A program made the position numbers and the translations under genes. A DNA stretch of 64,000 bases from Hymenobacter armeniacus (lineage in GTDB: Bacteria > Bacteroidota > Bacteroidia > Cytophagales > Hymenobacteraceae): assembly GCF_014699055.1 (NCBI RefSeq), contig NZ_JACXAC010000001.1, forward strand, positions 620,001-684,000. The letters run 5' to 3'. Positions 13,017-62,236 of the stretch are shown here, piece by piece (the stretch's first letter is position 1; every line of letters begins with the position of its first letter). The notes beneath the pieces are model-generated. The model saw only the letters and a list, made by a program, of their open reading frames with translations, did not search any database and was not told the DNA's origin.

Positions 13017-13035
13017 AGTCCAACCAGGAAAAGGG

Positions 13036-13049
13036 TGTGTTCGAACACA
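13036..13049. promoter_or_regulatory. Perfect 14-bp palindrome TGTGTTCGAACACA at the USP core promoter
   Basis: TGTGTTCGAACACA is self-complementary over all 14 bases. It overlaps the TTTG of the predicted -7 element (13048-13051, minus strand) and lies 20 bp before the USP start codon. Its position would suit a repressor operator or an early transcript structure. Confidence 0.45.
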
Positions 13050-13113
13050 AAGGACTAGGGCGCTGACTGCTAAAGCACTGCGCAACATTAGCCAGTCGCT
13101 TGATTATTGTCAT
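13048..13113 (-). promoter_or_regulatory. FNR-like dyad promoter of the USP gene at 12198-13016
   Basis: Distal dyad TTGAT-TATT-GTCAT at 13100-13113 (centre 13106.5). The first T of TTTG on the minus strand is at 13051, exactly 55.5 bp from that centre; the -7 octamer reads GTCCTTTG, so only its TTTG half is consensus. At the proximal position (13078-13091) only a poor match, CTGCGCAACATTAG, is present. The 13017-13339 gap otherwise holds no gene. Confidence 0.55.
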
Positions 13114-21678: not shown

Positions 21679-22000
21679 GCAGCCGATGATACCGCGTGCT
21701 AGTGCCTGCGCCATCCCGCTGCCGGCCCGGCAATAGGCGGGGGGCTCGGCGAGGGCTGCGCTGATGAAAATCAATTAAAAGCCTAACCGTCATCAGGGAA
21801 TCGCTTGGGGAAGTTGCCGAATTTTGAATGACTCACTTCCCGAAGCTTGGGCGACGTGCCATTCATTTCGCACGGTCAGAGCGAATAGGGCCTGCGCTTA
21901 ATTATTCGGTGCCGCCAGCCCGCTTCCGGGCCCGATAGTCCAGCGGCAAACTGTGGCTGGCTGGGCTTTTCCTCCCGCTATTATTCCATCCCTGAATGCT
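21679..22000. other. Intergenic region between the ATPase and the first BON gene
   Basis: 322 bp without a plausible gene. It holds the dyad promoter at 21761-21826. From there to the ATG at 22001 is about 170 bp of leader in which no terminator or riboswitch was recognised. Confidence 0.6.
21761..21826 (+). promoter_or_regulatory. FNR-like tandem dyad promoter of the BON-USP operon
   Basis: Distal dyad CTGAT-GAAA-ATCAA at 21761-21774 (centre 21767.5). A half-conserved proximal dyad CTAAC-CGTC-ATCAG lies at 21783-21796, exactly 22 bp on. The -7 element is GAATTTTG at 21819-21826, whose TTTG starts 55.5 bp from the distal and 33.5 bp from the proximal centre. Confidence 0.65.
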
Positions 22001-23491
22001 ATGCAAACGCTGGAATCTCCGCCGCAGGCTTCGGCCGGCACGGCCGCCGATGCCGACATCACGGCCGCCATCAAACGATGTTATCTGACCAAAAGGGGAG
22101 TAGCGCCGCACCTGATTGAGGTGAGCACCAAAGCGGGCATTGTGGAGCTAACCGGCGCCACCAACAGCCTGCTCTCGCGCCACCGGGCCGAGGAAATTGC
22201 CCTGGCCGTGTGCGGGGTGCGCGGCGTGGTGAACGAATTGGTGGTGAACGGCCCCGACGTGCCCAGCCCCGAGCTGCACCAGCACGTGCAGCAGGCCCTC
22301 GCCGACGACCCCGTGGCCCGCGACTACAACCTGCGCTGCACCGTGTCCGACGGCATGGTCTGGCTCACGGGCACGGTGCGCTCCTGGGCCGAAAAGCAGC
22401 TGGCCCTGCGCGTGGTAGAGGGCGTGCGCGGCGTGCAGCACATCGTGGACGACCAGCTGCGGGTGTGCCGCGAAGGCCCGCCCAAATCCGACGCCGACCT
22501 GACCCGGCAGCTGCTCGAAGCCCTCGACTGGGACATCCGGGTTAACAGAAACCTGGTGCAGGTGCGCACCGCCGACCGGATGGTGCACCTGGCAGGCACC
22601 GTGGGCTCGCTGGCGGTAAAGCGCCGCATCGAGGGCCTGGCCTACGAGCTGGGCGCCAGCCGCGTCGACGGCCGCGACCTGTTGGTGGCCCGCTGGGCCC
22701 TGGGGCCGGGCATGGGCCGGGAGGAAGACCTGGACCGTTCCGACGAGGCCATTGCCCAGGCCGTGCGCGACACCTTCGACCGCGACCCGCGGCTGCGGGA
22801 AGAGCTGCCCCAGGTGGAGGTGCAGGCCCACGCCGGCGCCGTGACGCTGCGCGGCACCGTGGGCAACCTGCGCGCCTGCCGCAGCGCCGCGCACGACGCC
22901 GGCCAGGTGGCGGGCGTGCGCGAGGTGCACAACCTGCTGAAAGTGCGCCCCACCCGGTTCTGGTCCGATGCCGACCTGCGCCAACGCGTGGCCGCGGCCC
23001 TGCAGCGCGACCCTTACCTGCACGGCTTCCACTTCAGCGTGACGGTGCTCAACAGCCGGGCCACGCTCCACGGCTGGGTGAGCAGCCGCTTCGAGCAGGA
23101 GCAGGCCGGCGAGCTGGCCTCGGGCGTGAACGGCGTGGTGGACGTGGAAAACCGGGTGGCCGTGTGGCCCGACGGCCACCACGCCGCACAGGCCCTGGCC
23201 GGCCACCTCACCGGCAGCCTCCGCCCGGCCGAAAAGCCCTTGCCGGCCGCCGAGCTGGTGGCGCGCATTCGCGCCCGCTACGCGTGGTCGGTGTGGCTGC
23301 ACAACCAGCCCATCGACGTGCGGGTGGAAGAAGGCGAAAGCCGCGTCACCCTCACCGGCGCCGTCGATACGGCGCAGGCCCGCGAGCTGGCGGTTCGCGA
23401 AGCCTACGAGCAGGGTGCCACCGAAGTCGACAACCACTTGCGGGTGTGCCCCACGCCAGAGAAACGAACGGTTTTATCGCCCACTATCTAA
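22001..23491 (+). CDS. Six-BON-domain protein (paralogue 1)
   Basis: 496 aa from MQTLESPPQ. Six consecutive BON-like units can be read, each starting with an Asp/Ala-rich helix and ending in a G-V-x-x-V-x-N/D signature: ADITAAIKRCY, LHQHVQQALADD, DLTRQLLEALDWD, IAQAVRDTFDRD, LRQRVAAALQRDPYLHG and ELVARIRARYAWS; examples of strands are IVELTGA, MVWLTGTV, MVHLAGTV, AVTLRGTV and RVTLTGAV. BON domains usually sit in the periplasm, yet no signal peptide or membrane helix is present here, so a cytoplasmic role is possible. It heads the operon with a small ORF and four USPs. Confidence 0.88.
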   Translation: MQTLESPPQASAGTAADADITAAIKRCYLTKRGVAPHLIEVSTKAGIVELTGATNSLLSRHRAEEIALAVCGVRGVVNELVVNGPDVPSPELHQHVQQALADDPVARDYNLRCTVSDGMVWLTGTVRSWAEKQLALRVVEGVRGVQHIVDDQLRVCREGPPKSDADLTRQLLEALDWDIRVNRNLVQVRTADRMVHLAGTVGSLAVKRRIEGLAYELGASRVDGRDLLVARWALGPGMGREEDLDRSDEAIAQAVRDTFDRDPRLREELPQVEVQAHAGAVTLRGTVGNLRACRSAAHDAGQVAGVREVHNLLKVRPTRFWSDADLRQRVAAALQRDPYLHGFHFSVTVLNSRATLHGWVSSRFEQEQAGELASGVNGVVDVENRVAVWPDGHHAAQALAGHLTGSLRPAEKPLPAAELVARIRARYAWSVWLHNQPIDVRVEEGESRVTLTGAVDTAQARELAVREAYEQGATEVDNHLRVCPTPEKRTVLSPTI

Positions 23492-27557: not shown

Positions 27558-27623
27558 ATGATTTTAATCAGCCGGCCGATTGAGAAAACGCAGTGCGGTG
27601 GCGCGGTGGCGCGGATAGTTTTG
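27558..27623 (+). promoter_or_regulatory. FNR-like tandem dyad promoter of ppsA
   Basis: Distal dyad ATGAT-TTTA-ATCAG at 27558-27571 (centre 27564.5). At the proximal position (27580-27593) TTGAGAAAACGCAG keeps only the left half-site. The -7 element TAGTTTTG at 27616-27623 is a perfect TAnnTTTG, with TTTG starting 55.5 bp from the distal centre. The ATG of ppsA is 73 bp further on. Confidence 0.7.
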
Positions 27624-27696: not shown

Positions 27697-30096
27697 ATGG
27701 CACCCGAACCATTTGCCCTGTTTTTTCAGGATTTGACCAATGACAAAGTGGCGCTGGTGGGCGGCAAAAACGCCTCCCTGGGCGAGCTGTACAACCGCCT
27801 GAGCGCGGAGGGCATCAGCGTGCCGAACGGATTTGCCCTCACGGCCAAGGCGTACGAGCTGTTTCTGAACGAGAACAACCTGCGCGAGCCGCTCACCGCT
27901 CTGCTGGCCAAGCTCGACACGCAGGAATTCAGCAACTTGGCCGCCATCGGCAACGAGGCGCGGATGATGTTGCGCGTGTCCCGGCTGCCCGATTCGGTGA
28001 GCCTGGCCATTGCCGATGCCTACCACCAGCTGCGGGCCGGCTACGAGCACGAAATTCAGGTGGCGGTGCGCAGCAGCGCCACGGCCGAGGACCTGCCCAC
28101 GGCCAGCTTCGCCGGGCAGCACGACTCGTTTCTGGACGTGCGCAGCGCCGATGCCGTGCTCGACGCCTGCCAGAAATGCTACGTGTCGCTGTTCAACGAC
28201 CGCGCCATTAAGTACCGGGTGCAGAACGGGTTCGACCACCTGAAAGTGGCGCTGTCGGTGGGCGTGCAAACCATGGTGCGCTCCGATTTGGCCTCGGCCG
28301 GCGTGGCCTTCACCATCGAGCCCGAAACCGGCCACGACAACCTGATTTACCTCACCGCCAGCTGGGGCCTGGGCGAAAACGTGGTGCAGGGCGCTGTAAA
28401 CCCCGACGAGTTCTACCTCTTCAAGCCGGCCCTGCGCACCGACAAGCGCGCTCTGGTGCGCAAGAAGCTGGGCGACAAGGCTAAAACCATGCGCTACGCC
28501 ACCGACGCCGGCACCACCGGTATCAAAAACACCGACACGCCGGCCGAGCGCCGCGCCGCCTTCGCCCTCACCGATGCCGAAGCCGAGCAGCTGGGCCGCT
28601 GGTGCCTGCTGATTGAAAACCATTACGGCATGCCCATGGACATCGAATGGGCCAAGGACGGCCTCAACGGCAGCCTCTACATCGTGCAGGCCCGGCCCGA
28701 AACCGTACACCACGGCCGCCGGGCCTTGCGCCTGCACGAGTACCACCTCACCGAGCGCGGCTCGCTGCTGGCCACCGGCAAGGCCGTGGGCAGCCAGATT
28801 GTGTCGGGCGTGGCGCGGCTTATCGACTCGCCGGCCGACGGCCACCGCCTGCAAACTGGTGACATTCTGGTCACGAACAGCACCAGCCCCGACTGGAACG
28901 CGGTGCTGAAAAAGGCGTCCGTCATCGTGACGAACCAAGGCGGGCGCACCAGCCACGCGGCCATTGTGGCGCGCGAGCTAGGCCTCTCGGCCGTGGTGGG
29001 CACGCTCGATGCGACCCTGAAAATCCGGGACGGGCAGCGCATCACCGTCTCTTGCGCCGAGGGCGACGAGGGCCACATCTACGAAGGCCAATTGGCCTGG
29101 GAAGAGCACGAAATCGACTTGGAGCACCTCGTGCAGCCCCACACCAAGCCCATGCTGATTCTGGCCGACCCTGACCGGGCGCTCACGCTGGCCCGCTACC
29201 CCAGCCAGGGCGTGGGCCTGCTGCGCATGGAGTTCATTATCAGCAACGCCATTCGGGTGCACCCCATGGCGCTGGTGGCCTTCGACCAACTCACCGACCA
29301 GAAGGCCCGCGAGGAAATCATGGCCCTCACCGCCAATTATGCCAGCAAGCCCGAGTATTTCATCGAGCAGCTGGCCCAGGCGCTGGGCTTCGTGGCGGCG
29401 GCATTCTACCCGCGCGAAGTCATCGTGCGCATGAGCGACTTCAAGACCAACGAGTACGCCAACCTGCTAGGTGGAAGGCAGTTTGAGCCGGAGGAAGAAA
29501 ACCCGATGCTGGGTTTCCGGGGCGCGTCGCGCTATTACAGTCCGCAATATCGCGAGGGCTTCCGGCTGGAATGCGCGGCTCTGGAGCGCGTGCGCCACGA
29601 CATGGGCCTGACCAACATCAAGGCCATGATTCCCTTCTGCCGCACGGTGGAAGAAGGCCAGCGCGTGGTGGCCCTGATGGCCGATTTCGGCCTGCGCCAG
29701 GGCGTCGACAACCTGGAAATCTACGTGATGGCCGAAATCCCGAGCAACGTCATTCTGGCCGAGGACTTCGCCACGGTGTTCGACGGCTTCTCCATCGGTT
29801 CCAACGACTTAACCCAGCTCACCCTGGGCCTGGACCGCGACTCGGCCATCGTGAGCGGGCTCTTTGACGAGCGCAACGAGGCCGTGACGCGGCTGCTCTC
29901 GCAGGTCATTCGCACGGCCAAGGCGCACGGCCGGCCCATCGGCCTCTGCGGCCAAGCCCCGAGCGACTACCCGGCTTTCGCCCAGTTCCTGGTCGAGCAG
30001 GGCATCGACAGCATTTCCTTCACGCCCGATGCGCTGCTTAATGGAATGGCGAATATGGTGAAAGCGGAGGAAGTGGTGGCCGATGAGTACCCGTAG
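27697..30096 (+). CDS. ppsA: Phosphoenolpyruvate synthase
   Basis: 799 aa, full family length. N-terminal ATP-grasp part: VALVGGKNASLGELYNRL, VAVRSSATAEDLPTASFAGQ, YIVQARPETV. The swivelling phospho-histidine domain has NQGGRTSHAAIVARELG with the catalytic His, and the PEP-binding barrel has GLLRMEFII, RMSDFKTNEYANL, EIPSNVILAEDF, SIGSNDLTQLTLGLDRDS and GLCGQAPSDYP. It makes PEP from pyruvate and ATP (AMP + Pi released). PpsA genes recur inside low-oxygen USP loci of other phyla. Promoter with perfect -7 element just upstream. Confidence 0.95.
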   Translation: MAPEPFALFFQDLTNDKVALVGGKNASLGELYNRLSAEGISVPNGFALTAKAYELFLNENNLREPLTALLAKLDTQEFSNLAAIGNEARMMLRVSRLPDSVSLAIADAYHQLRAGYEHEIQVAVRSSATAEDLPTASFAGQHDSFLDVRSADAVLDACQKCYVSLFNDRAIKYRVQNGFDHLKVALSVGVQTMVRSDLASAGVAFTIEPETGHDNLIYLTASWGLGENVVQGAVNPDEFYLFKPALRTDKRALVRKKLGDKAKTMRYATDAGTTGIKNTDTPAERRAAFALTDAEAEQLGRWCLLIENHYGMPMDIEWAKDGLNGSLYIVQARPETVHHGRRALRLHEYHLTERGSLLATGKAVGSQIVSGVARLIDSPADGHRLQTGDILVTNSTSPDWNAVLKKASVIVTNQGGRTSHAAIVARELGLSAVVGTLDATLKIRDGQRITVSCAEGDEGHIYEGQLAWEEHEIDLEHLVQPHTKPMLILADPDRALTLARYPSQGVGLLRMEFIISNAIRVHPMALVAFDQLTDQKAREEIMALTANYASKPEYFIEQLAQALGFVAAAFYPREVIVRMSDFKTNEYANLLGGRQFEPEEENPMLGFRGASRYYSPQYREGFRLECAALERVRHDMGLTNIKAMIPFCRTVEEGQRVVALMADFGLRQGVDNLEIYVMAEIPSNVILAEDFATVFDGFSIGSNDLTQLTLGLDRDSAIVSGLFDERNEAVTRLLSQVIRTAKAHGRPIGLCGQAPSDYPAFAQFLVEQGIDSISFTPDALLNGMANMVKAEEVVADEYP

Positions 30097-34269: not shown

Positions 34270-35220
34270 TCAGGGGCCAACGGCCGGATTGTTGGGCGCC
34301 AGCCAGTCGACGCCGCGCCGCAGCCACTGCTGGGTTTGGGCTTCGGGCGAGCCGGGGGTGGGGGCGTGGTTGTAGTGCCACTCCGCCCGCGGGGGCAGGC
34401 CCAGCACCATGCCTTCGGGGTAGCCGGTGGCGGGCTCGAAGCGGCCGGGGTGGCCCGTCGCAAGGGTGAACTCGGCGCAGCGGGCGCGCCGCACCTGCTG
34501 CCAGCGTTTTTCGGGTTCGGAGTAGGCCAGGTGGGCGTTTTGGCCCATGAGGGTGCAGTAGGTGCGGCCGTACACCTCGCCCACGTCCTGCACAAAGGCC
34601 AGCAATTCCTCAAACAGGCCGTCGGGGCCCACCCGCAGCTGGGGGAAGTGCAGGCCGCCCACGCCCCGGGTTTCGCCCCGGTGGGGCAGGTAAAAATGCT
34701 CGTCGGCTTCGGCCTTGAAGCGGGCGTAGTAGCCGGCATCGTGGCGGTTGCACACGGCCTGAATCTGGGCATGAAACCAGCGGGCCTGCGCCACGTCCAC
34801 GTACACCGGCGTCAAATCGAGGCTGCCGGCAAACCAGGCCTCGCCCGTGCGGGCTTCGAAGTAGCGCAGGCTCAAATGCGAAATAGGCACCATGGGGCTG
34901 CGCGGGTGCAAGCCCGCCGTGATGCCGGTGGCAAAGTAGCTCCGGTCGTTGAGCTGCAACTGCTTGACCAGCGGCTCGCTCATTTCGTCCCATACTTCCG
35001 AAAAAATCACGCTGCCCTTCTCCAGCACGGCCCCGTGCTGCAGGGCGCGGGCCAGGCCGCCGCCGCCGCCGGGGTGGGTCCATTCTTCGTGCCGAAACCG
35101 GCTGCCGCCCCCGTCCGCCGTTTCCAAGCGGTGGCACAGCCAGTCCTGAAATTGCCGCATCCAGTCGGCGGCCCCCGCACGCGGCCGGAAGGCCGACGGG
35201 GGAATCACGTTGCTTTTCAT
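34270..35220 (-). CDS. hemF: Oxygen-dependent coproporphyrinogen III oxidase
   Basis: 316 aa from MKSNVIPPSAFRPR; the longer ORF start at 35295 is less likely. Conserved blocks: FRHEEWTHPGGGGGLARAL, SLRYFEARTGEAWFAGSLDLTPVY, HRGETRGVGGLHF and TGYPEGMVLGLPPRAEW. It converts coproporphyrinogen III to protoporphyrinogen IX using O2 in heme synthesis. Tandem dyads at 35338-35403 precede it. In Pseudomonas aeruginosa, hemF is controlled by the FNR-type regulator Anr, which makes similar control plausible here. Confidence 0.93.
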   Translation of the reverse strand: MKSNVIPPSAFRPRAGAADWMRQFQDWLCHRLETADGGGSRFRHEEWTHPGGGGGLARALQHGAVLEKGSVIFSEVWDEMSEPLVKQLQLNDRSYFATGITAGLHPRSPMVPISHLSLRYFEARTGEAWFAGSLDLTPVYVDVAQARWFHAQIQAVCNRHDAGYYARFKAEADEHFYLPHRGETRGVGGLHFPQLRVGPDGLFEELLAFVQDVGEVYGRTYCTLMGQNAHLAYSEPEKRWQQVRRARCAEFTLATGHPGRFEPATGYPEGMVLGLPPRAEWHYNHAPTPGSPEAQTQQWLRRGVDWLAPNNPAVGP

Positions 35221-35337
35221 CGTTTTTGCATCTGCGTAAACGGGCGCCGTAACCACTGCAAGCTCCCGCGGGCACCGCTCGTTTGGCCGGGCCAAGAGGC
35301 GGCGGCCTCAAGCCGAATGAGCTAACCGGTAACAGCA

Positions 35338-35403
35338 TAAAGCTGCTTGATTTTCAAGGCCAATGCGCTGATAAGCATCATTCCGCGGCCTGATTCCACT
35401 CAG
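35338..35403 (-). promoter_or_regulatory. FNR-like tandem dyad promoter of hemF
   Basis: Distal dyad CTGAT-TCCA-CTCAG at 35390-35403 and proximal dyad CTGAT-AAGC-ATCAT at 35368-35381, centres 22 bp apart. The aligned -7 octamer on the minus strand is CAGCTTTA (35345-35338), a poor match, with the first T 33.5 bp from the proximal centre. The distal dyad lies 20 bp after the stop of the response regulator gene. Confidence 0.55.
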
Positions 35404-35422: not shown

Positions 35423-36475
35423 CTACCACTGGGGGTGGCGCAGTTTTTCGGGTTGCAGCACGTGCACGCTTTTCGCCGTGAGCTCAATCAGGCCGTCTTG
35501 TTTGAACTCGCTCAGGGTCCGAATCAGCGATTCCGGCGTGGTGCCAATCACGGCGGCCAAGTCATCGCGCGAGAAATGGATGACGTGGTGTTCGTCGGTG
35601 GTTTGTTCGTGCAGCCGCAACAGCGTATCGGCCACGCGGCGGCGCAACGAGTCGTAGGCCATGCCCAACAGCAGCTGCTCCCGCTCCTCGACCTGCCCCG
35701 CCAGCAGCCGCACAAACTGCTGGCCGACGGCCTGGTGCTGGAAAAGCAGCTGCTCAAAATCTTCTTTGGGAATGTAGAGCAGCGCGGCGTCTTCGAGCAC
35801 CACGGCCGAGTCGGTGTGGAGCCGCTGCTGCAACAGCGGCAGGTAGCCGAAGAACTCGCCGGGGCCGTACACGCCCGTTATCAGTTCCTTGCCCGCGGCC
35901 GTCCGGCGCACGGTTTTCACCCGCCCGCTCTGCACGAAGTAGAGCCGGGCCGCCTCGTCGCCTTCGGCGTAAACGAATTGCTTCTTGCTCACGGGGTGCG
36001 GCCGGCGGTCGGTGGTGAGGCTGTGCAGGTTGCCCACCGCCCGGGCGTCGTTCAAAAATTCGTGCAGGCCCTCGGGGGCACGCAAATTGTAGGACGGCTG
36101 CAGCTGCTGGAAGCGGCTCAGCCGGCTGCTGATGGCGCTCAGCAGCTCGGTTTCCTCAAAGGGCTTGGTGAGGTAGTCGTCGGCGCCGAGCTCCATGCCG
36201 CGGCGCAGGTCGGCGCGCTCGGTTTTGGCGGTGAGGAAAATGAAGGGCACGCCCTTGAGCTGGGGGTTCTGGTTGAAGATGTGCAGCACGCCGTAGCCGT
36301 CGAGCACGGGCATCATGATGTCGCACACCACCAGGTCGGGCGGGGTGGCCAGGGCTTTTTCCACCCCGATTTTGCCGTTTTCGGCGGTCAGCACCTCGTA
36401 GCCGGCCAGCTCCAGAATCTCGGCCGTGTTGTTGCGCACGATGTCGCTGTCCTCAATCAACAAGATGTTTTTCAT
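35423..36475 (-). CDS. Response regulator fused to a CRP/FNR-type DNA-binding protein
   Basis: 350 aa from MKNILLIEDSDIVRNN; the 60 residues upstream in frame are a shadow of the kinase gene. Receiver domain: acidic E8/D9, phospho-acceptor Asp52 (VVCDIMMP), Thr82 and Lys104 (YLTKPFEE). A cyclic-nucleotide-binding-like fold follows (about 152-270) and a winged helix (about 275-345). The recognition helix reads GTTPESLIRT: Glu315 and Arg319 match the E and R that FNR and CRP use to read TGA, while FNR's Ser212 is Ile318. No Cys set for an iron-sulfur cluster exists. It overlaps the kinase gene by 23 bp. Confidence 0.92.
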   Translation of the reverse strand: MKNILLIEDSDIVRNNTAEILELAGYEVLTAENGKIGVEKALATPPDLVVCDIMMPVLDGYGVLHIFNQNPQLKGVPFIFLTAKTERADLRRGMELGADDYLTKPFEETELLSAISSRLSRFQQLQPSYNLRAPEGLHEFLNDARAVGNLHSLTTDRRPHPVSKKQFVYAEGDEAARLYFVQSGRVKTVRRTAAGKELITGVYGPGEFFGYLPLLQQRLHTDSAVVLEDAALLYIPKEDFEQLLFQHQAVGQQFVRLLAGQVEEREQLLLGMAYDSLRRRVADTLLRLHEQTTDEHHVIHFSRDDLAAVIGTTPESLIRTLSEFKQDGLIELTAKSVHVLQPEKLRHPQW

Positions 36476-38063
36476 GGGGCAGGGTAATGGTGACGGTGGT
36501 GCCCACGCCCAGCTCGCTGCGCAGGGCCACGGTGCCGCCCAGCAGCTCCACGTAGCGGCCCACGATGTAGAGGCCCAGGCCGGTGCCGGGCAGGTTGATG
36601 GCGTTGCGGGCCCGGAAAAACCGCTGAAACAGCCGGTCTTGGTCTTCGCGGGCAATGCCCATGCCCTGGTCCTCCACCGCCACGCACAGCCGGCAGCCCT
36701 GAAGGCTGGCGCGCACGGTGACGGTGGTGTTCTCGCAGGAGTATTTGAGGGCGTTGCTGAACAAATTCACCAGCACTTTGCGCAGCAGCGAGGCGTCCAG
36801 CCACAGGGGCGGCAGGCTTGGCAGGGCCAACTCGATGCGCTGGCCGGGCTTGCGCAGGCCCGCGGTTTCGGTGATGGCCTCGTGCAGCAGCGGGGCCAGG
36901 TCGAGCTGTGCGGTGTGCACTTCCAGGCGGCCCTCCTCGATTTTGCCCACCGAGAGGAATTCCTCCAAAATGTCGGTCAGGTGCTTCACCGAGGTGCGAA
37001 TGCGGTCGTAGTGGCGCTGGCGCTTGTCTTGCTGCTCGGCGCCCGCGTACTTTTCGAGCAGCACCACGGAGGTGAGCACGGCCGTGAGCGGCGTGCGAAA
37101 CTCGTGAGAAGCCATGGCCACGAAGCGCGTTTTGAGTTCGCCCAGTTCCTGCTCCTGGGCCAGGGCCTGGCTGAGCTCGCGGGTGCGCTGCTCCAGCTGG
37201 GCCAGGGTGGTTTCCAGGTCGTGGGTGCGGTCGGCCACTTTCTGCTCCAGCTCGGCATTGAGCTGGGCCACGCGCCGGTGCTGGGCGTGCAGCTCCTGCT
37301 CGGCCGTTTTCTTGAGGGTAATGTCGATGACGTAGGCCACGACGAACAGCTCCGCCTCGATGTGGAAATAGCTCAGGCTGACTTCCACGGGGAATTCGGA
37401 CCCGTCGCGGCGGCGGGCCAGCAGGTCGCGGTTGTGCCCCATGGCCCGCATGGTGGGCCGCGCGTTAAACGACTCCCGGAACTGCTCGTGGCGGTGGCGC
37501 GTGGCGTCGGGCACCAAGGCCTCGATGCGCTCGCCGAGCAGCTCCCCGTCGGGGTAGCCAAACAGCTGGCGCGCTTTCTCGTTGGCGAGCACAATGTCGC
37601 CGGCCCGGTTGCACATGATGATGCCGATGGTGGCGTGGCTCACCACGGCCTCGAAGCGGCTCATGCTTTCGGCCAGGCGGTGCTCGGCCAGGTGCAGCGG
37701 GGTGGTGTCGGCGAGGCGCACAAGAAAATAGGGCTGATTTTCAAACCAGAGGCAGGTAAGCTCGACGTGGGCCCAGAAGCACTCCCCCGACTGCCGCTGC
37801 ATTTCCGAGTCGAATTCTTGGTAGCCCTCGCGCAGCACTTTTTCCCGGAGCTCGGCCCATTCATCGGGCGCAAAGCGGGTGCCGCGCAAGGCCCGCGCCG
37901 GCTCGTCGTACAGGGCCTGCGCCGACGGGTAGCCCAGGAGCTGGTAGCCCGCCGTGTTGACGTGCGTGAACCAGCCCTGTTCGACATGGTACAAGCCCAC
38001 AAACTCTTTGCTTTGCTCAAAGAGGATGTCTGTCAGCGGATTACGGTAGCGTTGGGCTGGCAT
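36453..38063 (-). CDS. PAS-domain hybrid-free sensor histidine kinase
   Basis: 536 aa, no membrane helix, so cytoplasmic. Two PAS domains (about 10-120 and 130-250), a coiled coil (LHAQHRRVAQLNAELEQKV), then the H-box ASHEFRTPLTAVL (His about 320), N-box LVNLFSNALKYS and G-boxes DQGMGIAREDQDRLF and GTGLGLYIVGRYV. The second PAS contains RHRHEQF where FixL has its heme-binding His, but the other FixL contacts are not conserved, so heme sensing is only possible. It overlaps and surely phosphorylates the CRP-type response regulator downstream. Confidence 0.92.
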   Translation of the reverse strand: MPAQRYRNPLTDILFEQSKEFVGLYHVEQGWFTHVNTAGYQLLGYPSAQALYDEPARALRGTRFAPDEWAELREKVLREGYQEFDSEMQRQSGECFWAHVELTCLWFENQPYFLVRLADTTPLHLAEHRLAESMSRFEAVVSHATIGIIMCNRAGDIVLANEKARQLFGYPDGELLGERIEALVPDATRHRHEQFRESFNARPTMRAMGHNRDLLARRRDGSEFPVEVSLSYFHIEAELFVVAYVIDITLKKTAEQELHAQHRRVAQLNAELEQKVADRTHDLETTLAQLEQRTRELSQALAQEQELGELKTRFVAMASHEFRTPLTAVLTSVVLLEKYAGAEQQDKRQRHYDRIRTSVKHLTDILEEFLSVGKIEEGRLEVHTAQLDLAPLLHEAITETAGLRKPGQRIELALPSLPPLWLDASLLRKVLVNLFSNALKYSCENTTVTVRASLQGCRLCVAVEDQGMGIAREDQDRLFQRFFRARNAINLPGTGLGLYIVGRYVELLGGTVALRSELGVGTTVTITLPHEKHLVD

Positions 38064-39071: not shown

Positions 39072-40514
39072 TTAATAGCCGTTGAAAACGGCTTCGCTGG
39101 TGGTGCGAAGCTTGTTGTTGACGCTGCTGGCGCCGCCGGCCAGGGCGCAGTGAATGGCTAGCTGGGCCTGGTGCCAGTTTTCGATGTTGCCGCGCAGCGT
39201 GGCCTGCCCGTTCTTCACGCTCACCTGAAGGTTGAGGTCGTGCAGGAAGGCGTTCCAGTACAGCTCCTGCCGAATGGCTTGCTCAATGGCCTGGTCGAGG
39301 TTTACGGCGTGGGTGAGCGTGCCGTCCTGGCTCCGGCCAAACCAGGCCGGGGCATTGGCCGTGATGTGCAAGTGGTTGTCGACCTGCACCACGCCGCTGA
39401 TGCCGGCCGCCACCTGCTCGGCGTGGGCGGCCTCGAAGTGGGTGGGCACGCTGCCGCTCAGGTTGACGGTGCTGTTGTAGGCCAGCACCGTGATGGGGTA
39501 GCGGCCCACGTAGGGGTCGCGGGTGAGGGCGGCCTGCACGTGGTTGCGCAGCTTCACGTCGTCGAAGGGGCCTGCGGGGCGCACTTTCAGGCGGTTGTTT
39601 ACCCAGCTCACGCCCACCACGTTGCGGGCGTCCTGCTCGGCGGCGCGCTTGGCGGCCAGGCTGTTCACGGTGCCGGTCAGCGTCACGGTGCTGCCCTGCA
39701 CGGTCACCGTGGGCTCGAAGGAGAACACCCGCGGGTCGTACACGAAAGCGTCGCGCACGGCCTGGGCAATGTCGGTTTCGGAGTGGTAGGCGTACTTGTC
39801 CTGCCGCACGTCGTCGCTGGGCACCCAGGGCTCCACGCGCAGGTCCTTGCTGTCCACCGCTTTGGCCGCGCCGGCGCTCCAGGCAATGCCGATGACTTCG
39901 CTGCGCTCCAGGGCGCTGCCTACCACGCCGCTCAGCTTCACGGCGCCGTTTTTCACGCTCACGCTCACCAGGCCGGCGTGCACGCGCACGTTCCAGCGCA
40001 GCAGCTCGCGAATGGAGGCCGCCATCTCGTCGTCGGGCCGGGGCGTGAGGGCCGGCACGTAGGTCAGGTGGTCGTCGACGCGGCGGATGCCCCGCACGCC
40101 CTTCACCACGCGCAGCACCTGCTGGCGCTCGGCGTAGCTGCGCACGGTGCCGCGCAGCTCCACCTCGCCGGTTTTGGCCAGGCACTCGATGGCCAGGCTC
40201 TGGGTGGCGGGGTTGGTGGCCAGGGCTTCCTTGAGGTCGGCCAGCAGCTTGGCGTCGGGCACTTCCGGCGTGCGAATTTCCAACTCGTTCACCACGCCGC
40301 GCACGCCGCGCACCAGCTTGGCAATTTCCTCGGCCCGGTCGAGGGACAATAGGCTGTCCGTAAAGCCTTTGAGCGTGACGATGCCCTCGGTGGTGCTCAC
40401 GTCAATCCAGGTGGCCGACACGCCCTGCCGCCGGCTGTAGAGGCGTTCGATGGCGGCCGTGATGTCGTGGTCGGCCAGCAGTTGCTTGGTGGTGGGAATG
40501 CTTAAGGTGCTCAT
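39072..40514 (-). CDS. Six-BON-domain protein (paralogue 2)
   Basis: 480 aa from MSTLSIPTTKQLLAD. It shows the same six-unit plan as the paralogue at 22001: ITAAIERLYSRRQGVSATWID, AKLLADLKEALATN, MAASIRELLRWNVRVHAGL, IAQAVRDAFVYDPRVFS, LRNHVQAALTRDPYVGRYPI and IEQAIRQELYWNAFLHDLNL, with strands IVTLKGF, EVELRGTV, AVKLSGVV, TVTLTGTV, TVNLSGSV and QATLRGNI. No signal peptide. A regulated promoter with a perfect -7 element lies upstream. Confidence 0.9.
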   Translation of the reverse strand: MSTLSIPTTKQLLADHDITAAIERLYSRRQGVSATWIDVSTTEGIVTLKGFTDSLLSLDRAEEIAKLVRGVRGVVNELEIRTPEVPDAKLLADLKEALATNPATQSLAIECLAKTGEVELRGTVRSYAERQQVLRVVKGVRGIRRVDDHLTYVPALTPRPDDEMAASIRELLRWNVRVHAGLVSVSVKNGAVKLSGVVGSALERSEVIGIAWSAGAAKAVDSKDLRVEPWVPSDDVRQDKYAYHSETDIAQAVRDAFVYDPRVFSFEPTVTVQGSTVTLTGTVNSLAAKRAAEQDARNVVGVSWVNNRLKVRPAGPFDDVKLRNHVQAALTRDPYVGRYPITVLAYNSTVNLSGSVPTHFEAAHAEQVAAGISGVVQVDNHLHITANAPAWFGRSQDGTLTHAVNLDQAIEQAIRQELYWNAFLHDLNLQVSVKNGQATLRGNIENWHQAQLAIHCALAGGASSVNNKLRTTSEAVFNGY

Positions 40515-40593: not shown

Positions 40594-40659
40594 CAAAATT
40601 ATTCGTTCGCTGGCCCCGGTTGCATGACGATGCTCAGACCGGTGCTTGATTCAGGTCAT
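40594..40659 (-). promoter_or_regulatory. FNR-like tandem dyad promoter of the second BON gene
   Basis: Distal dyad TTGAT-TCAG-GTCAT at 40646-40659, proximal dyad ATGAC-GATG-CTCAG at 40624-40637, centres 22 bp apart. On the minus strand the -7 element is TAATTTTG (40601-40594), a perfect TAnnTTTG with TTTG starting 55.5 bp and 33.5 bp from the two centres. The BON ATG is 80 bp downstream. Confidence 0.75.
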
Positions 40660-41993: not shown

Positions 41994-42404
41994 CTACGCT
42001 GCCGCCAGCGCGGCCGGCTGCTGGGGCGCGTGGGCACCCGTGCCCAGCCGGTGGAACTGCCAGTAGGCCCGCATCGTGGCCAGGTTCAGGACGTGGCCTT
42101 TGGCTTCGGCGGCCACCAGCACGTCGAGGGCCTCGTCGAGGCTTGTTTCCAGCAGGCGGCACCAGCGCTCCAGCTGCGAAGCGGTGAAGAGCGGGGCTGC
42201 GTCGCGCTGCAGGGGCCGGCCGGTGTAGCGGTTGCCCAGCAGGGCTTGTTCCCACCAGGCGCATTCGCCGCCGTCGGGCGCGTGGTGCGGCCGGGGAAAT
42301 GCGCGGCCCAACAGGGCGTCGCCCGCCACCCGGTGCGCAAACTGATGCACGAAACGCCGGCATTGCAGTGGGCTAATGCAGTCGGAAAAGCGGGGAGTCA
42401 ACAC
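41994..42404 (-). CDS. Group III truncated-hemoglobin-like protein lacking the heme histidine
   Basis: 136 aa from a GTG (MLTPRFSDCISPLQ). The sequence aligns by eye with group III truncated globins: FVHQFAHRVAGDALLGRAF, WWEQALLGNRYTGRPLQRDA and FTASQLERWCRLLETSLDEAL, ending with the helical VLNLATMRAYWQFHRLG. In the family the segment YxGxPLxxH contains the proximal His; here it is YTGRPLQRD, an Asp. The distal B10 Tyr also seems absent (FAHRV). It is therefore probably a heme-free globin fold, or binds heme differently. It follows the PRTase gene and has a tandem-dyad promoter. Confidence 0.5.
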   Translation of the reverse strand: MLTPRFSDCISPLQCRRFVHQFAHRVAGDALLGRAFPRPHHAPDGGECAWWEQALLGNRYTGRPLQRDAAPLFTASQLERWCRLLETSLDEALDVLVAAEAKGHVLNLATMRAYWQFHRLGTGAHAPQQPAALAAA

Positions 42405-42579: not shown

Positions 42580-42645
42580 TAAAAATACAGCGGTGCCGAA
42601 ACGGGTGGGTTGACGACAATCAGCCAGGCCGCTGATTGTCGTCAT
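42580..42645 (-). promoter_or_regulatory. FNR-like tandem dyad promoter of the globin-like gene
   Basis: Distal dyad CTGAT-TGTC-GTCAT at 42632-42645 and proximal TTGAC-GACA-ATCAG at 42610-42623, centres 22 bp apart. On the minus strand TATTTTTA (42587-42580) is the aligned -7 element, one base from TAnnTTTG. The two dyads also form a 13-bp perfect hairpin (42611-42643, GACGACAATCAGC paired with GCTGATTGTCGTC) that overlaps the PRTase stop codon and may serve as its 3' end. Confidence 0.65.
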
Positions 42646-43307
42646 GCTGAGCCTGCGGGGCGCCCGGCAGTTCCGGTGGCCGGGAGCGTCGCCGCGTGCA
42701 AGATGGCCAGCGCTTCCTCGTCCGTCACTTCGCTAAAGTCCTGGTAGTATTGCCCGACGGCCCGGAAATCGAGCGGCGCCAGCAGGCACACCACTTCGTC
42801 GGCGGCGGCCTGCAGCTGGTGCAGCCCCTCGGGCGACGCTACTGGCACGGCCACGATGACGCGCGCCGGCTGCTCTTTCCGCACCAGCGCGATGGTGGCG
42901 AGCAGGGTTTGGCCGGTGGCCACGCCGTCGTCGACGACGACCACCGTGCGGCCGGCCAGCGGCTGGGGCGGGCGGTGGCCCAGGTAAGCCTCCCGCCGGG
43001 CTTTCAGCTTGGCCTGAATGGCGGCCACCCGCTCCGTCAGCCAGGCGTCGGGCACCTCCACGTGGGGGCTGAGCACGTAGCCGTACTCGCTCACGGCCCC
43101 GATGGCAAACTCGGAATTATGCGGGTGCCCCAGCTTCTTAATCAGCACCACGTCGAGGGGCCAGCCGAGGGCCTGGGCGATGACGACGCCCATGGGCAGC
43201 GCGCCGCGGGGCACGGCCAGCACCACGCCGGGCCGGCCGCGCAGGTGCTCCAGCCGCTGGGCCAGCAGCCGGGCCGCCGCCTGGCGATTAGCAAACCGGG
43301 TTTCCAT
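42642..43307 (-). CDS. Phosphoribosyltransferase family protein
   Basis: 221 aa from METRFANRQAAARLLAQRL. The type I PRTase PRPP loop VVVVDDGVATGQTLLA is clear, with GVVLAVPRGALPMGVVIAQAL, VLIKKLGHPHNSEFAIGAV and YYQDFSEVTDEEA near the end. This is the PRTase family found with dienelactone-hydrolase-like proteins in dormancy clusters; in M. tuberculosis Rv2030c a PRTase and an erythromycin esterase domain occur in one protein. Substrate unknown. It is 25 bp after the hydrolase gene. Confidence 0.92.
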   Translation of the reverse strand: METRFANRQAAARLLAQRLEHLRGRPGVVLAVPRGALPMGVVIAQALGWPLDVVLIKKLGHPHNSEFAIGAVSEYGYVLSPHVEVPDAWLTERVAAIQAKLKARREAYLGHRPPQPLAGRTVVVVDDGVATGQTLLATIALVRKEQPARVIVAVPVASPEGLHQLQAAADEVVCLLAPLDFRAVGQYYQDFSEVTDEEALAILHAATLPATGTAGRPAGSA

Positions 43308-44145: not shown

Positions 44146-44211
44146 CTAAATAAACCGGCTGTCCTCGGTGGAAACATGACCGGCATTAGGCAAAAGGGTG
44201 ATTTTGCTTAT
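44146..44211 (-). promoter_or_regulatory. Weak candidate tandem dyad promoter of the hydrolase-PRTase pair
   Basis: GTGAT-TTTG-CTTAT at 44198-44211 and ATGAC-CGGC-ATTAG at 44176-44189 are degenerate dyads with centres 22 bp apart. On the minus strand the aligned octamer is TTATTTAG (44153-44146), a poor -7 match. The geometry agrees with the other promoters, but the bases match weakly. Confidence 0.3.
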
Positions 44212-44335
44212 GGCGTGGTGACTTGCCTGTCAGTAAGTTAGTTGAACCAAGCAAGGGCCGGCGGAGTGCTCCGAAAACAATCTTTCAGCCCCGCCGGAAG
44301 TTGAGGCTTTGCCCAAACCTCTTTTGCGTTTGACA

Positions 44336-45631
44336 ATGGCACCTGCATTTCCCACCCACCCCCTGCGCCAAGCGGCCGACCTCGGCCCCGTACTGGCGGC
44401 CATTGGCGATGCCCGCGTGGTGCTGCTGGGCGAAGCCTCGCACGGCACCCACGAGTACTACACCTGGCGCACGGCCCTAAGCAAGCGCCTGATTAGCGAA
44501 AAAGGCTTCCAGTTTATTGGCGTGGAAGGCGACTGGCCCGACTGCTTCGAGGTGAACGCGGCCATCAAGCAGGACGCCGTGACCTACGGCTCGGCCGCGC
44601 AATTGCTCCAAACCTTCAACCGCTGGCCCACCTGGATGTGGGGCAACTGGGAGATTTCGGCCCTGGTGGAGTGGCTGCACCGCCACAACCTAAGCCAGCC
44701 CGCCGCGCGCCGCGTGGGCTTCTACGGCCTCGACGTGTACAGCCTCTGGGAATCGCTGCAAGCCGTGCTGCACTACGTGGAGCAGCAGGGCGACGGCGCC
44801 CTGACGGCCGCCCGCCACGCGTTCCACTGCTTCGAGCCCTACAGCGCCGACCCGCAGCAGTACGCCCGGGCCGTGGCTTTTGTATCGGAAGACTGCCAGG
44901 ACGAGGTGGCCGGCCTGCTGCGCACCATGCGCCGCCAGGCCGCCGGCCGGGCCTACGCCAGCCTGCCCGAGCGCGAGCAGGCCTTCGCCGCCGAGCAAAA
45001 CGCCCTGGTGGCCGTGAACGCCGAGCGTTACTACAAGGCCATGCTGCGCGGCGGCGGCTCGTCGTGGAACGTGCGCGACCGGCACATGATGGAAACCCTC
45101 GCCCGCCTGCTGGAGCTGCACGGCCCCGGGAGCAAAGCCATTGTGTGGGCGCACAATACCCACGTGGGCGACGCCCGCTACACCGACATGCGCCGCGACG
45201 GCGAGGTCAACATCGGCCAGCTGGCCCGCGAACAATTGGGGCGTGAGCAGGTGTTCAGCGTCGGCTTTGGCTCCTACGAGGGCAGCGTGGTGGCGGGCAA
45301 GGATTGGGGCGCCCCGCGCGAGAAAATGGCCGTGCCCCGCGCCGTGCGCGCCTCCTGGGAACACCAGCTGCACGAGCAGCTGCGGGGCGACAACGCCGTG
45401 CTGCTCTCCGCCGAGCTGCGCAACCACTCCAGGCTGCAGCAGCCGGTGGGCCACCGCGCCATTGGGGTGGTGTACCGGCCGCAGTTCGAGCAGTTTGGCA
45501 ACTACGTGCCCTCCCTCATCCCCGAGCGCTACGACGCCTTCCTGTTCCTCGACCGCACCCAGGCGCTGCACCCGCTGCCCACCACCCCGCAGCCCAACGT
45601 GCCGCCGGACCTGTACCCGTGGGGCGAGTAA
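44336..45631 (+). CDS. Erythromycin esterase-family protein
   Basis: 431 aa from MAPAFPTHPLRQAADLG; the in-frame TTG at 44309 is an alternative start. The EreA/EreB family motifs are visible: VVLLGEASHGTHEYYTWRT with the active-site Glu and His, FIGVEGDWPDCFEVNA, NRWPTWMWGNWE, VGFYGLDVYS, and WAHNTHVGDARYTDM with the second His pair. Family members hydrolyse macrolide esters or other ester/lactone bonds; here the setting (USPs, PRTase) suggests a stress-related role rather than drug resistance. A terminator follows. Confidence 0.9.
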   Translation: MAPAFPTHPLRQAADLGPVLAAIGDARVVLLGEASHGTHEYYTWRTALSKRLISEKGFQFIGVEGDWPDCFEVNAAIKQDAVTYGSAAQLLQTFNRWPTWMWGNWEISALVEWLHRHNLSQPAARRVGFYGLDVYSLWESLQAVLHYVEQQGDGALTAARHAFHCFEPYSADPQQYARAVAFVSEDCQDEVAGLLRTMRRQAAGRAYASLPEREQAFAAEQNALVAVNAERYYKAMLRGGGSSWNVRDRHMMETLARLLELHGPGSKAIVWAHNTHVGDARYTDMRRDGEVNIGQLAREQLGREQVFSVGFGSYEGSVVAGKDWGAPREKMAVPRAVRASWEHQLHEQLRGDNAVLLSAELRNHSRLQQPVGHRAIGVVYRPQFEQFGNYVPSLIPERYDAFLFLDRTQALHPLPTTPQPNVPPDLYPWGE

Positions 45632-47513: not shown

Positions 47514-47988
47514 GAGCGTACGGGTTTGGTGAATAGAAAAAGGGGTTCAGACTTGCTTTGGGGAATGACTGGCGCTGGGCATTGGGGCACTACGCCCGCA
47601 GCATCAAGCGGCTAAGGGTGGCCGGGTAGCCGGGCGCATCCGGGCGCACTGGCCCGCACGGCGGTAGCTGGCAAGCATCACGGCTACTCATTGGGCAGGG
47701 CAAGAAAGCCGGCAACAAACCGAAACAAAATGATTGAAATCAGACTGTCAATTGATTATGCTTTCTGCTTGCTTGCTCCGGACTGGAAGCCGCGTGCGCT
47801 GAGCTGGCCCTGCAAATGCCGCAGGGGGCTGGAACAGGCGGGCCGCGGCCGACCGCTGTTCCTAATTAGGCAAATGCCTGATGCTAATCATGTTCCGGAA
47901 TTTATCCCCGACGCAGATTTGCGCTTTTCCCACTGGTTGCGCCCCGCTTCACCGCGCCGCTATTTATACCACCTCATTCCCGTGCCCC
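47514..47988. other. Intergenic region between the propeller and a USP gene
   Basis: 475 bp between divergent genes. It holds a lone dyad ATGAT-TGAA-ATCAG at 47730-47743, the USP promoter at 47856-47921, and no plausible ORF. The lone dyad overlaps a TCATTTTG (minus strand) that could be a -7 element of the propeller gene, where bound protein would repress. Confidence 0.55.
47856..47921 (+). promoter_or_regulatory. FNR-like tandem dyad promoter of the USP at 47989
   Basis: Proximal dyad CTGAT-GCTA-ATCAT at 47878-47891 (centre 47884.5); the distal partner CTGTT-CCTA-ATTAG at 47856-47869 is degenerate. The -7 octamer CAGATTTG at 47914-47921 keeps ATTTG and has TTTG starting 33.5 bp from the proximal centre. 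The ATG follows 68 bp later. Confidence 0.6.
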
Positions 47989-48837
47989 ATGCAACAGACG
48001 TTTGTGGTCATGACCGATTTTTCGGACGCCGCCCAAGCCGCCCTGTCCTACACCGCCCGCCTGGCCGCGCTGGTGGAGGGGCGCGTCATCCTGCTGCACA
48101 TCTTTGAAGACCCGCTGGCCGTGGCGCTGGAATCGCCTTTGGTGCTGGCGGCCGGGCGCCTGCGGTTCCGGCCGCAAACCAGCCGCGCCGCCGTGCTGGC
48201 CGCGCTAGCCCACGAAGCCCAGCAGCTGCCCGTGCCGGCCGAAGCCGAAACCGCCGAAGCACCGCTCGGCCCGGCGTTGCACCGCCTGCTGGCCCACCGC
48301 TTTCCGCAGCTGCTGGTGCTGGGCCGCGCCCACGCCCACGCCTGGTTCGAGCACCTGCTCACGCTGTCGCACCAAGCGGTGGTGCTGAAAGAAGCCCACG
48401 TGCCCGTGCTGCTGGTGCCAGAAAATTGGCACCGGCCGGAGCTGCCGCGCCGCGCCGTGGTGGGCGCCGACGGCGCGCCCCTGACCCTGCAGCCCGCCTG
48501 CCTGGCCGTGGCGCCGCTGCTGGCCCGGCTGCGGCTGGCCGCCACCGTGGTGCACGTGGCGGCCCACGCCCACGGCCCCTCCCGCGCCCCCGAGGCCCTG
48601 GAAGCCGTGCGGCAAACCAGCCTCTTCGGCCCGCTGGACGACAACCACGTGTACGACCTGCGCGAAACGGCCCCGGTCGCCGGCCTGCTGCAAGCCGTGC
48701 AGGAGCTGGACGCCGACCTGCTCGTGGTCATGCCCCGGCCCCATTTTTTTCCCGGCAACCTGTTTCACCACGACGTGACGGCCGAATTGCTGCGCACCAG
48801 CCCCGTGCCCGTGCTGGTGCTGCCCGCCGTGGCGTAG
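47989..48837 (+). CDS. Universal stress protein, two UspA domains
   Basis: 282 aa from MQQTFVVMTDFSDAAQAALS; the ORF extends to 47881 but that would run through the dyad, so the shorter start is used. The second domain opens RRAVVGADGAPLTLQ. The final loop is VVMPRPHFFPGNLFHHDVTAELL, a variant of the group's HRSVTAQ motif. Divergent from the T9SS propeller gene. Confidence 0.87.
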   Translation: MQQTFVVMTDFSDAAQAALSYTARLAALVEGRVILLHIFEDPLAVALESPLVLAAGRLRFRPQTSRAAVLAALAHEAQQLPVPAEAETAEAPLGPALHRLLAHRFPQLLVLGRAHAHAWFEHLLTLSHQAVVLKEAHVPVLLVPENWHRPELPRRAVVGADGAPLTLQPACLAVAPLLARLRLAATVVHVAAHAHGPSRAPEALEAVRQTSLFGPLDDNHVYDLRETAPVAGLLQAVQELDADLLVVMPRPHFFPGNLFHHDVTAELLRTSPVPVLVLPAVA

Positions 48838-58216: not shown

Positions 58217-58282
58217 CAAATTTCCACCAGACGCGCTGGCAAGGCATTGAATTTTATCAGCGCATTGCCTGATTTTAATCAC
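58217..58282 (-). promoter_or_regulatory. FNR-like tandem dyad promoter of the third BON-USP operon
   Basis: Distal dyad CTGAT-TTTA-ATCAC at 58269-58282, proximal dyad TTGAA-TTTT-ATCAG at 58247-58260, centres 22 bp apart; both keep TGA and TCA. On the minus strand GAAATTTG (58224-58217) is the -7 element with TTTG starting 55.5 bp and 33.5 bp from the two centres. Confidence 0.75.
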
Positions 58283-58337: not shown

Positions 58338-58403
58338 ATGATTACGAACAGGCAACTCCCTGATACACATCAGGCGCCGGGCCGGGCACCGCGCAGATAT
58401 TCA
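58338..58403 (+). promoter_or_regulatory. FNR-like tandem dyad promoter of the DUF4239-like gene
   Basis: Proximal dyad CTGAT-ACAC-ATCAG at 58360-58373 is a perfect palindrome; distal ATGAT-TACG-AACAG at 58338-58351 has one core mismatch. Centres are 22 bp apart. The aligned octamer GATATTCA (58396-58403) is a poor -7 element. The ATG at 58431 is 28 bp further. It is divergent from the promoter at 58217-58282. Confidence 0.6.
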
Positions 58404-58430: not shown

Positions 58431-59306
58431 ATGATGCCGTTCGTTGCCCGACTGGATTTGCCTGGCCAGCCCGGTAGCCTCCTGCTGGGCAGCGAGTCAT
58501 TCGGCGCTTTAAGCCGGGAACTGATGAGAGAATACTCGCTGCTGTACCGCACCGACTCGCGCCTGCTGGTGCTCCTCTTGTTCGGCCTGCTGCTGCTCCT
58601 GACCCGGGCCGGCCTGTGGGAGGGCCGGCGCCGCAAGCCCTACGCCACCAGCACCAACGAGCAGTCGGTGGCCGTGGCCTCGCTGCTGGCCTTGCAGGGC
58701 CTGCTGCTAGCTTTCTCGTTTTCGATGGCTTCCGACCGGTTTCAGGTGCGGCGCGATGCGCTGGTGGCCCTGGCCGCGAGCTTTCGCACGGCCGTGCTGC
58801 GGGCCAACCTCTACCCCGAGCCCGAGCGCACCGGCTTTCGGCGGGAGCTGCACCGCTACCTGGACGCGCGCATCGCCTTCGGCGAGGCGCCGTACGATTC
58901 GGTCATTATCAAAGGCACCTTGGTGCAGGCCGACACGGCCATCAACCAGGTGTGGCGCCGGGTGGCGCGGCTGTCCTTCGACCGTCGCTACGACATGGCC
59001 ACCGACAAAATGGTGGACGCCCTGAACGAGGTGACGGCCCACGCCATTGCCCGGCAGGCCTCGCTGCGCGCCCACGTGCCCGATGCCGTGGTGTACATGC
59101 TGTTCATCATTGCCCTCATCACCGCGTTTTTTTCGGGCTACGTGAGCGCCAACCGGGCGCGGTTCGACTGGCTGGCCGTCGTCACCTTCCACCTGATGGT
59201 GGCGCTGGTGGTGTTCATCACGCTGGAGCTCGACCGGCCCCGGCGCGGCATCATCCGGCCCTCCGACGTGCAGGAAATCCTGGTCGACCAGCTGCACCTG
59301 TTTTAA
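58431..59306 (+). CDS. DUF4239-like membrane protein
   Basis: 291 aa. Two N-terminal membrane helices (LLVLLLFGLLLLLTRAGL; VAVASLLALQGLLLAFSFSM), a soluble domain of about 120 residues and two C-terminal helices (VVYMLFIIALITAFFSGYV; LAVVTFHLMVALVVFITLEL) ending DRPRRGIIRPSDVQ. The topology and closing motif fit DUF4239 (bestrophin-like) proteins. Function unknown. It has its own dyad promoter. Confidence 0.75.
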   Translation: MMPFVARLDLPGQPGSLLLGSESFGALSRELMREYSLLYRTDSRLLVLLLFGLLLLLTRAGLWEGRRRKPYATSTNEQSVAVASLLALQGLLLAFSFSMASDRFQVRRDALVALAASFRTAVLRANLYPEPERTGFRRELHRYLDARIAFGEAPYDSVIIKGTLVQADTAINQVWRRVARLSFDRRYDMATDKMVDALNEVTAHAIARQASLRAHVPDAVVYMLFIIALITAFFSGYVSANRARFDWLAVVTFHLMVALVVFITLELDRPRRGIIRPSDVQEILVDQLHLF

Positions 59307-62126: not shown

Positions 62127-62192
62127 ATGACAACAATCGAAACCTCAATTGATTAAGGTCATGGTTTGCGGCGTGGCCCGGGCTGAAATTGT
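62127..62192 (+). promoter_or_regulatory. FNR-like tandem dyad promoter of the efflux adaptor gene
   Basis: Distal dyad ATGAC-AACA-ATCGA at 62127-62140 (one core mismatch), proximal TTGAT-TAAG-GTCAT at 62149-62162, centres 22 bp apart. The aligned octamer GAAATTGT at 62185-62192 is a weak -7 element. A further partial dyad TTGAT-TACA-ATCTT lies at 62108-62121. The ATG is 45 bp beyond the octamer. Confidence 0.5.
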
Positions 62193-62236
62193 GGCCAAAA
62201 CACGGTGCCCCGGCACAACCGGCCGCCTGCTTGTCC

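Follow-up and report, generated by a model that had tools for sequence, protein, structure and literature searches.

We analysed a window of 64,000 nucleotides from the genome of Hymenobacter armeniacus, on the reverse strand of which the genes of a PAS kinase and of a response regulator overlap. The regulator gene adjoins hemF and lies among BON, Usp and PEP-synthase genes; this copy is not beside cbb3 genes. The two genes, the predicted recognition helix and the predicted TGAN6TCA dyad sites are collected in Table 1. A matrix scan gave no scoring dyad ahead of the kinase-regulator operon itself. Within 42611-42644, each dyad is the perfect inverted repeat of the other, and this mutual inversion could let the site serve as a hairpin, too, where the gene 42642-43307 ends.

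Table 1. Genes, recognition helix and predicted dyad sites in the window
Position	Strand	Feature	-7 element	Associated gene or basis
13079..13112	.	Dyad with degenerate partner; scores both ways, weaker		Between Usp gene 12198-13088(-) and amidohydrolase gene 13340-14848(+)
21762..21795	+	Tandem dyad, second copy degenerate		Before BON-domain gene 21953-23491
27559..27592	+	Tandem dyad, second copy degenerate	TAGTTTTG	Before PEP-synthase/PPDK-like gene 27697-30096
35369..35402	-	Tandem dyad, 22-bp spacing	CAGCTTTA (-7-like, at the fixed distance)	Predicted promoter of hemF 34270-35295 (Pfam HemF)
35423..36475	-	Response regulator ORF (350 aa): receiver, cNMP-binding fold, CRP-type HTH		Pfam, AlphaFold2 model
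35498..35536	-	Predicted recognition helix, residues 314-326 (PESLIRTLSEFKQ)		Sequence, alignments, AlphaFold2 model
36453..38063	-	PAS-HisKA-HATPase kinase, FixL-like PAS; 23-nt overlap with regulator gene		Pfam, structure matches
40625..40658	-	Tandem dyad	TAATTTTG	Predicted promoter of BON-domain gene 39072-40514
42611..42644	-	Tandem dyad	TATTTTTA	Next same-strand gene is small ORF 41994-42404, no Pfam match
44177..44210	+	Degenerate dyad pair; weakest, uncertain		Before erythromycin-esterase-like gene 44309-45631
47857..47890	+	Dyad with degenerate upstream copy	CAGATTTG	Before Usp-like gene 47881-48837 (by sequence; true start probably further in)
58248..58281	-	Tandem dyad	GAAATTTG	Predicted promoter of gene 56530-57987 (BON-like by sequence)
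58339..58372	+	Dyad with degenerate upstream copy; weaker		Before bestrophin-like gene 58431-59306
62128..62161	+	Dyad pair, one degenerate; weaker		Before HlyD-like gene 62189-63334

An earlier note on this DNA had read the ORF at 35423-36475 as a receiver joined to a CRP/FNR-type output, and Pfam bore out this architecture: Response_reg at residues 4-115 (E 3.7e-26), cNMP_binding (PF00027) at 162-247 (E 1.3e-22) and HTH_Crp_2 (PF13545) at 280-346 (E 3.6e-17), the latter two above cut-off. In alignments of 13 and 25 fusions, the receiver residues D9, D52 and K104 were invariant and T82 nearly so. By its phospho-acceptor Asp and conserved Lys, the protein is a predicted two-component response regulator; by its cNMP-binding fold and Crp-type HTH, it is also a predicted member of the CRP/FNR superfamily. 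The AlphaFold2 model (mean pLDDT 88) has residues 314-326 as the second helix of the HTH, and the numbering of E315, I318 and R319 in the note was exact, PESLIR beginning at residue 314. Foldseek matched the fused regulator to CRP/FNR structures with E-values of 2e-15 to 3e-13 over ~190-235 columns, at a low TM-score (0.28-0.32 by query). The VIA-align matches listed were receiver domains and do not inform on the output half. The lack of an FNR-type Fe-S cysteine set, also claimed in the note, was confirmed in that the sole Cys of the fused regulator is C51, inside the receiver. The NCBIfam Fnr model gave 67 bits (cut-off 228) and the FixK model (Caulobacter) 66 bits (cut-off 300); among the NCBIfam matches listed, neither kinase nor regulator was above cut-off, the general PAS-domain model excepted. 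The fused regulator is not a FixK, which is a stand-alone CRP-type regulator, given the receiver that it carries, nor a FixJ, which joins a receiver to a LuxR-type HTH, unlike the Crp-type output found here.

A second full-length copy of the regulator, 79% identical and with its own kinase, is located on contig C5. By gene order and Pfam it adjoins a cbb3 cluster, its neighbours being a globin, a heavy-metal ATPase (FixI-like), FixS, a CcoN-FixO fusion, FixP, FixG, FixH and HemF. Among relatives, 55 fusion stretches (≤20 kb) included 21 with a cbb3-cluster gene, a weak FixI match being excluded, and 17 with CcoNO itself; of 80 named fusion loci, 33 had a cbb3-cluster gene. Universal stress and ATPase genes form two islands of similar make-up, at 12198-57987 of the window and C5:213000-243000; both contain a kinase-fusion pair, and the window island has BON-domain genes in addition. 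Four loci (L089, L095, L255 and L327) have a second regulator match close to the fusion, which would fit a pair that is easily duplicated; part of these matches may cover a receiver alone.

The TGAN6TCA dyad is present in 35 copies in the window, compared with a shuffle mean of 5.2, and none of 100 shuffles reached 35. Scoring with a matrix built from 40 sites in other genomes gave 13 window matches above 13 bits, some of them overlapping, and none above 6 bits in ten block-shuffled windows. The H. armeniacus genome contains 13 pairs of dyads exactly 22 bp apart, against 0 in a reversed control. This spacing also recurred elsewhere. In 34 fusion-gene stretches that were not selected for dyads, 45 pairs were at 22 bp and 20 at the other 59 spacings combined (shuffles 0), and in 21 stretches of families f7 and f6 the counts were 13 and 14 (shuffles 0). 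Five stretches came from genomes without a fusion, three having been selected for the tandems already known there; these five had 7 pairs at 22 bp and 3 otherwise (shuffles 0 at 22 bp). The 80 named loci, which may have species in common with the first genome set, had 60 pairs at 22 bp and 53 at other spacings, 12 of these at 23 bp.

The tandems also stand at a fixed place relative to a promoter element. In 88 oriented tandem flanks (7 tandems without a nearby gene start and any near a stretch end were dropped, and some tandems were counted in both directions), A was found at +25 in 70%, and T at +28, +29 and +30 in 81, 82 and 72%, respectively. This pattern is the TAnnTTTG -7 box of the Bacteroidetes, whose distance from the dyad before it is fixed at 23 bp. 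Within the 80 named loci, TAnnTTTG stood at distance 23 in 36 cases and at distance 45 in 61, the mean for other distances being 0.82. Where a composite promoter (a tandem with a correctly placed AnnTTT) was lacking, in 13 f7 loci, a single dyad preceded TAnnTTT by 23 bp 56 times, with a mean of 1.7 at other distances. In the H. armeniacus genome, the strict TAnnTTTG at the fixed place gave 1 match and the reversed control 2, and a dyad with the strict TANNTTTG at any of a range of distances from it was found 4 times, against 6 in the control. The looser AnnTTT at the fixed place gave 16 against 4 and, with a tandem, 11 against 0; the reversed-pattern control is a rough one, and shuffles are better. 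CRP and FNR, as class II activators, occupy position -41.5. In Flavobacterium psychrophilum, TAnnTTTG is placed at -12 to -5 (PMC9723704). From this placement and the fixed distance between dyad and box, the dyads would be centred at about -41.5 and -63.5 relative to the expected start, whose position is borrowed from F. psychrophilum.

Of 395 genomes from the phylum, 56 encode a full-length fusion, every one of them in the class of the window; these were picked by eye as matches over nearly the whole query with E ≤ 1e-30, so that weaker fusions would escape. Named relatives are from Hymenobacter (64-70%), Spirosoma, Larkinella, Chitinophaga, Mucilaginibacter, Pedobacter, Reichenbachiella and others. 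In a tree, 57 fusions formed one clade apart from seven standalone relatives with support of 0.81 (one arbitrary outgroup), the seven standalones grouping with support of 0.51 only. The composite promoter was found in 39 of the 56 fusion genomes and in 9 of the 339 others (Fisher p 8e-32; kinship ignored, as in the other counts), and at least three tandems in 30 of 56 and 15 of 339 (the latter counted by eye). Computation also places the tandems in clusters around the fusion genes: 58 of 215 lie within 55 stretches (≤20 kb) around fusions in 53 genomes, stretches that make up 0.45% of the sequence (from rounded genome sizes), where 1.0 would be expected. Twelve of the 56 fusion genomes have no tandem dyad and 17 no composite promoter. 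Two genomes, G391 (29 tandems) and G099 (18), have unusually many, several clustered near the fusion gene, and would suit regulon definition.

These associations support, by circumstance, the earlier suggestion that the fusion reads the dyads. The note had also stated that genomes with the dyads and no fusion would refute it, and nine such genomes carry the composite promoter (G273, G320, G017, G150, G383, G051, G108, G271 and G306), three of which (G051, G108 and G320) have one match apiece. We thus rejected tandem dyads as a signature of the fusion only. We likewise rejected a single dyad with a -7 box as a marker of the fusion, since single-dyad promoters of the same geometry are widespread in fusion-less genomes (29 in G271 and 32 in G306). 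Six of the nine (G150, G383, G271, G306, G273 and G320) have a standalone CRP/FNR-like gene in the same locus as such dyads, a coincidence that comes partly from selection, four of the five fusion-less stretches having been chosen at or near a standalone gene. In G150, G383 and G271, the standalone FNR-like protein shares the stretch with cbb3 genes and tandem dyads; in G306, its gene adjoins a tandem dyad, with no cbb3 genes within the 15 kb examined; and in G320 and G273, the composite promoters are 141 and 57 bp from standalone CRP-like matches. The stretch of G017, which was chosen at its tandems, showed no standalone CRP/FNR-like gene. The proteins of G150, G383, G271 and G306 carry CxxC...C at the N-terminus and an Ile where the fusion has I318. 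The operator is thus older or wider than the fusion. These genomes show that the operator is shared; they are not evidence that the fusion leaves it unused.

H. armeniacus itself has two standalone FNR-like proteins, C6:750145 (L039:7146-7850) and C4:1004799 (L040:6800-7504), and the dyads of its genome may be readable by several proteins. Both are CRP-type by Pfam, have an N-terminal CxxC-x8-CC, keep the E and R of the recognition helix with T at the equivalent of position 318, and are encoded 0.3-2.3 kb from tandem dyads; it is possible that they are Fe-S sensors of the same network. An alternative is that these two proteins are the readers, sensing oxygen via Fe-S, whilst the fusion controls something else or modulates them. 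The helix residues, the cysteines, the nearby tandems and the fusion-less genomes with such a gene in the locus all fit this explanation. Set against it are the tracking of the composite promoters with the fusion, the clustering of more than a quarter of the tandems at the fusion gene, and the T of these two proteins at the equivalent of position 318, which is I in the fusion as well as in the G150, G383, G271 and G306 standalones. On balance we consider it unlikely that the standalone proteins are the readers in place of the fusion, and think that Cys-bearing FNR-like paralogues probably read the same sites as well.

The input to the fusion was examined through the PAS domain of the kinase. 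Amongst 14 solved structures that matched it, seven were FixL (best 1d06, E 1.6e-12), six DosP or other haem-PAS proteins and one another kinase. Of 55 and 80 fusion loci, 48 and 72, respectively, have a kinase gene ≤600 bp upstream of the fusion and in its orientation. We compared a set of 50 kinases (48 partners of fusions and both kinases of the H. armeniacus genome) and the 72 kinases of the named set at two positions, which we take to be those of the proximal haem ligand and the distal Arg of FixL. The first was H in 47 of 50 and 63 of 72; the second was R in 38 of 50 and 31 of 72, with M or L in 22 of the named kinases. Several kinase families carry a motif almost identical to that of FixL (MPEPDRSxHDxYI...IIGIGRE). 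Aligned to the FixL stretches, the window kinase keeps both positions and so qualifies, on its residues, as a putative FixL-type kinase; beyond the His and Arg its PAS is less FixL-like than the PAS of other families. As this PAS resembles FixL, the proposal in the earlier note that input comes from the overlapping kinase gains support.

A His at the haem position is no proof of haem, and PAS domains are versatile. The fusion could therefore read the dyads whilst its kinase responds not to oxygen but to another cue, such as redox state, NO, light or an energy signal, via a haem-less PAS, an explanation to which the substitutions at the distal-Arg position lend some weight, as do the universal stress and BON proteins amongst the window targets. 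The prevalence of the His in both kinase sets, the near-identity to FixL in several families, and the cbb3, globin and HemF genes adjoining the second copy all count against a cue of this kind, which we regard as quite unlikely.

The earlier note had drawn a finer argument from the recognition helix. Residues of this helix have defined roles in FNR and CRP, and I318 stands where FNR has a serine (Ser212); its replacement was proposed to leave free the first base of the half-site, before TGA. At the inner flanks of the 13 tandems of the genome, this base was C in 15, A in 4, T in 4 and G in 3 of 26 cases. The variation was thus real, the strict TGA being the constant part by which the dyads had been found. 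E315 and R319 were invariant in the alignments of 13 and 25 fusions. Residue 318 was I in most fusions, S in family f4, part of f7 and one congener, and T or N in a few; a helix pattern that caught 69 of the 80 named loci, overlooking 11, gave 62 I, 6 S and 1 V. We infer that the flank sites compared below belong to the fusions. Six Ser-type genomes, with all 39 of their tandems, had T at 6 of 78 inner tandem flanks; seven Ile-type genomes, with 75 of their 77 tandems (the two left out are from G186), had it at 28 of 150. In a second, overlapping set, using all four flanks near the fusion and leaving out the genomes with T or N at 318 (G158, G178 and G146) and five no-fusion loci, the values were 9 of 76 and 32 of 140. 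In 13 f7 loci, all with Ile at 318, the base was A or C at 109 of 112 flanks and T at 1 of 112. Since T is not regained with Ser and Ile is not enough to free the base, we rejected Ile318 as the source of the free first base, an explanation that, for all the invariance of E315 and R319 and the constancy of TGA, is now very improbable.

The explanation that we favour, and consider probable, is that a FixL-type kinase drives a FixJ-FixK-like receiver-CRP fusion for the control of low-oxygen genes. The PAS would bind haem and oxygen; at low oxygen, the kinase would be freed and would transfer phosphate to the receiver of the fused regulator. The phosphorylated regulator would then bind as a CRP-type dimer to the TGAN6TCA near -41.5, the class II position, and activate transcription and, at tandem sites, a second dimer would occupy the dyad near -63.5. 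The targets would be low-oxygen genes: those for the cbb3 oxidase and its assembly, for HemF and PEP synthase, and for BON and universal stress proteins.

Several parts of this scheme are familiar from other regulators. The receiver is closely alike to that of OmpR/PhoB-type response regulators, and the output is CRP-type instead. With CRP, the fusion shares the fold of its output half and, by prediction, a class II position; the receiver is an addition. E. coli FNR and the FnrN type have in common with the fusion the TGA half-site, the recognition-helix residues E and R and, as predicted for the fusion, a class II position; the fusion differs in having no cysteine set, in a first half-site base that is mostly not T and in an activity presumably set by phosphorylation. 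The alphaproteobacterial FixL-FixJ-FixK and hFixL-FxkR-FixKf systems have, like the pair here, a haem-PAS-like kinase and a two-component step (PMC4999443, PMC7888657). They also have a CRP/FNR-type output without Fe-S cysteines, cbb3 (fixNOQP) and fixGHIS-type genes, which here are neighbours and likely targets, and an FNR-type protein that may share operators; the last two steps are in one protein here, whereas receiver and CRP-type proteins are separate there. The fusion system differs further in its phylum, its tandem 22-bp operator and its TAnnTTTG -7 box. Among the titles and abstract beginnings listed in searches of the open-access literature, none described a Bacteroidota FixL partner with a receiver-CRP fusion. 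In F. psychrophilum, cbb3 and haem genes are up under oxygen limitation, and the words Crp and Fnr are absent from the main text of that study (PMC9723704).

A more far-reaching version is that the Bacteroidota evolved their own short-circuit of FixL-FixJ-FixK. Receiver phosphorylation would join two CRP-type dimers on dyads spaced by exactly two helical turns (-41.5 and -63.5), the operator being interchangeable with that of an FNR-type regulator which senses oxygen directly, such that regulators were swapped and promoters kept. We offer this only tentatively and consider it doubtful as a whole; the joining of the dimers by the receiver is its weakest step, because tandem sites occur without the fusion too.

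The probable FixL-type kinase and its receiver-CRP fusion are together a candidate for the system that regulates cbb3 oxidases by oxygen across a large group of environmental Bacteroidota. The promoter rule (TGAN6TCA, N10, TGAN6TCA, N23, TAnnTTTG) is precise enough for regulon prediction from sequence. FixK is proposed to derive from FnrN by cluster loss and to have taken over FnrN sites (PMC4999443). What we observe in the Bacteroidota looks like a natural case of one operator with two kinds of regulator, a Cys-bearing FNR-like protein and a kinase with its fusion, which parallels the proposal made there for FnrN and FixK in the alphaproteobacteria (PMC4999443).
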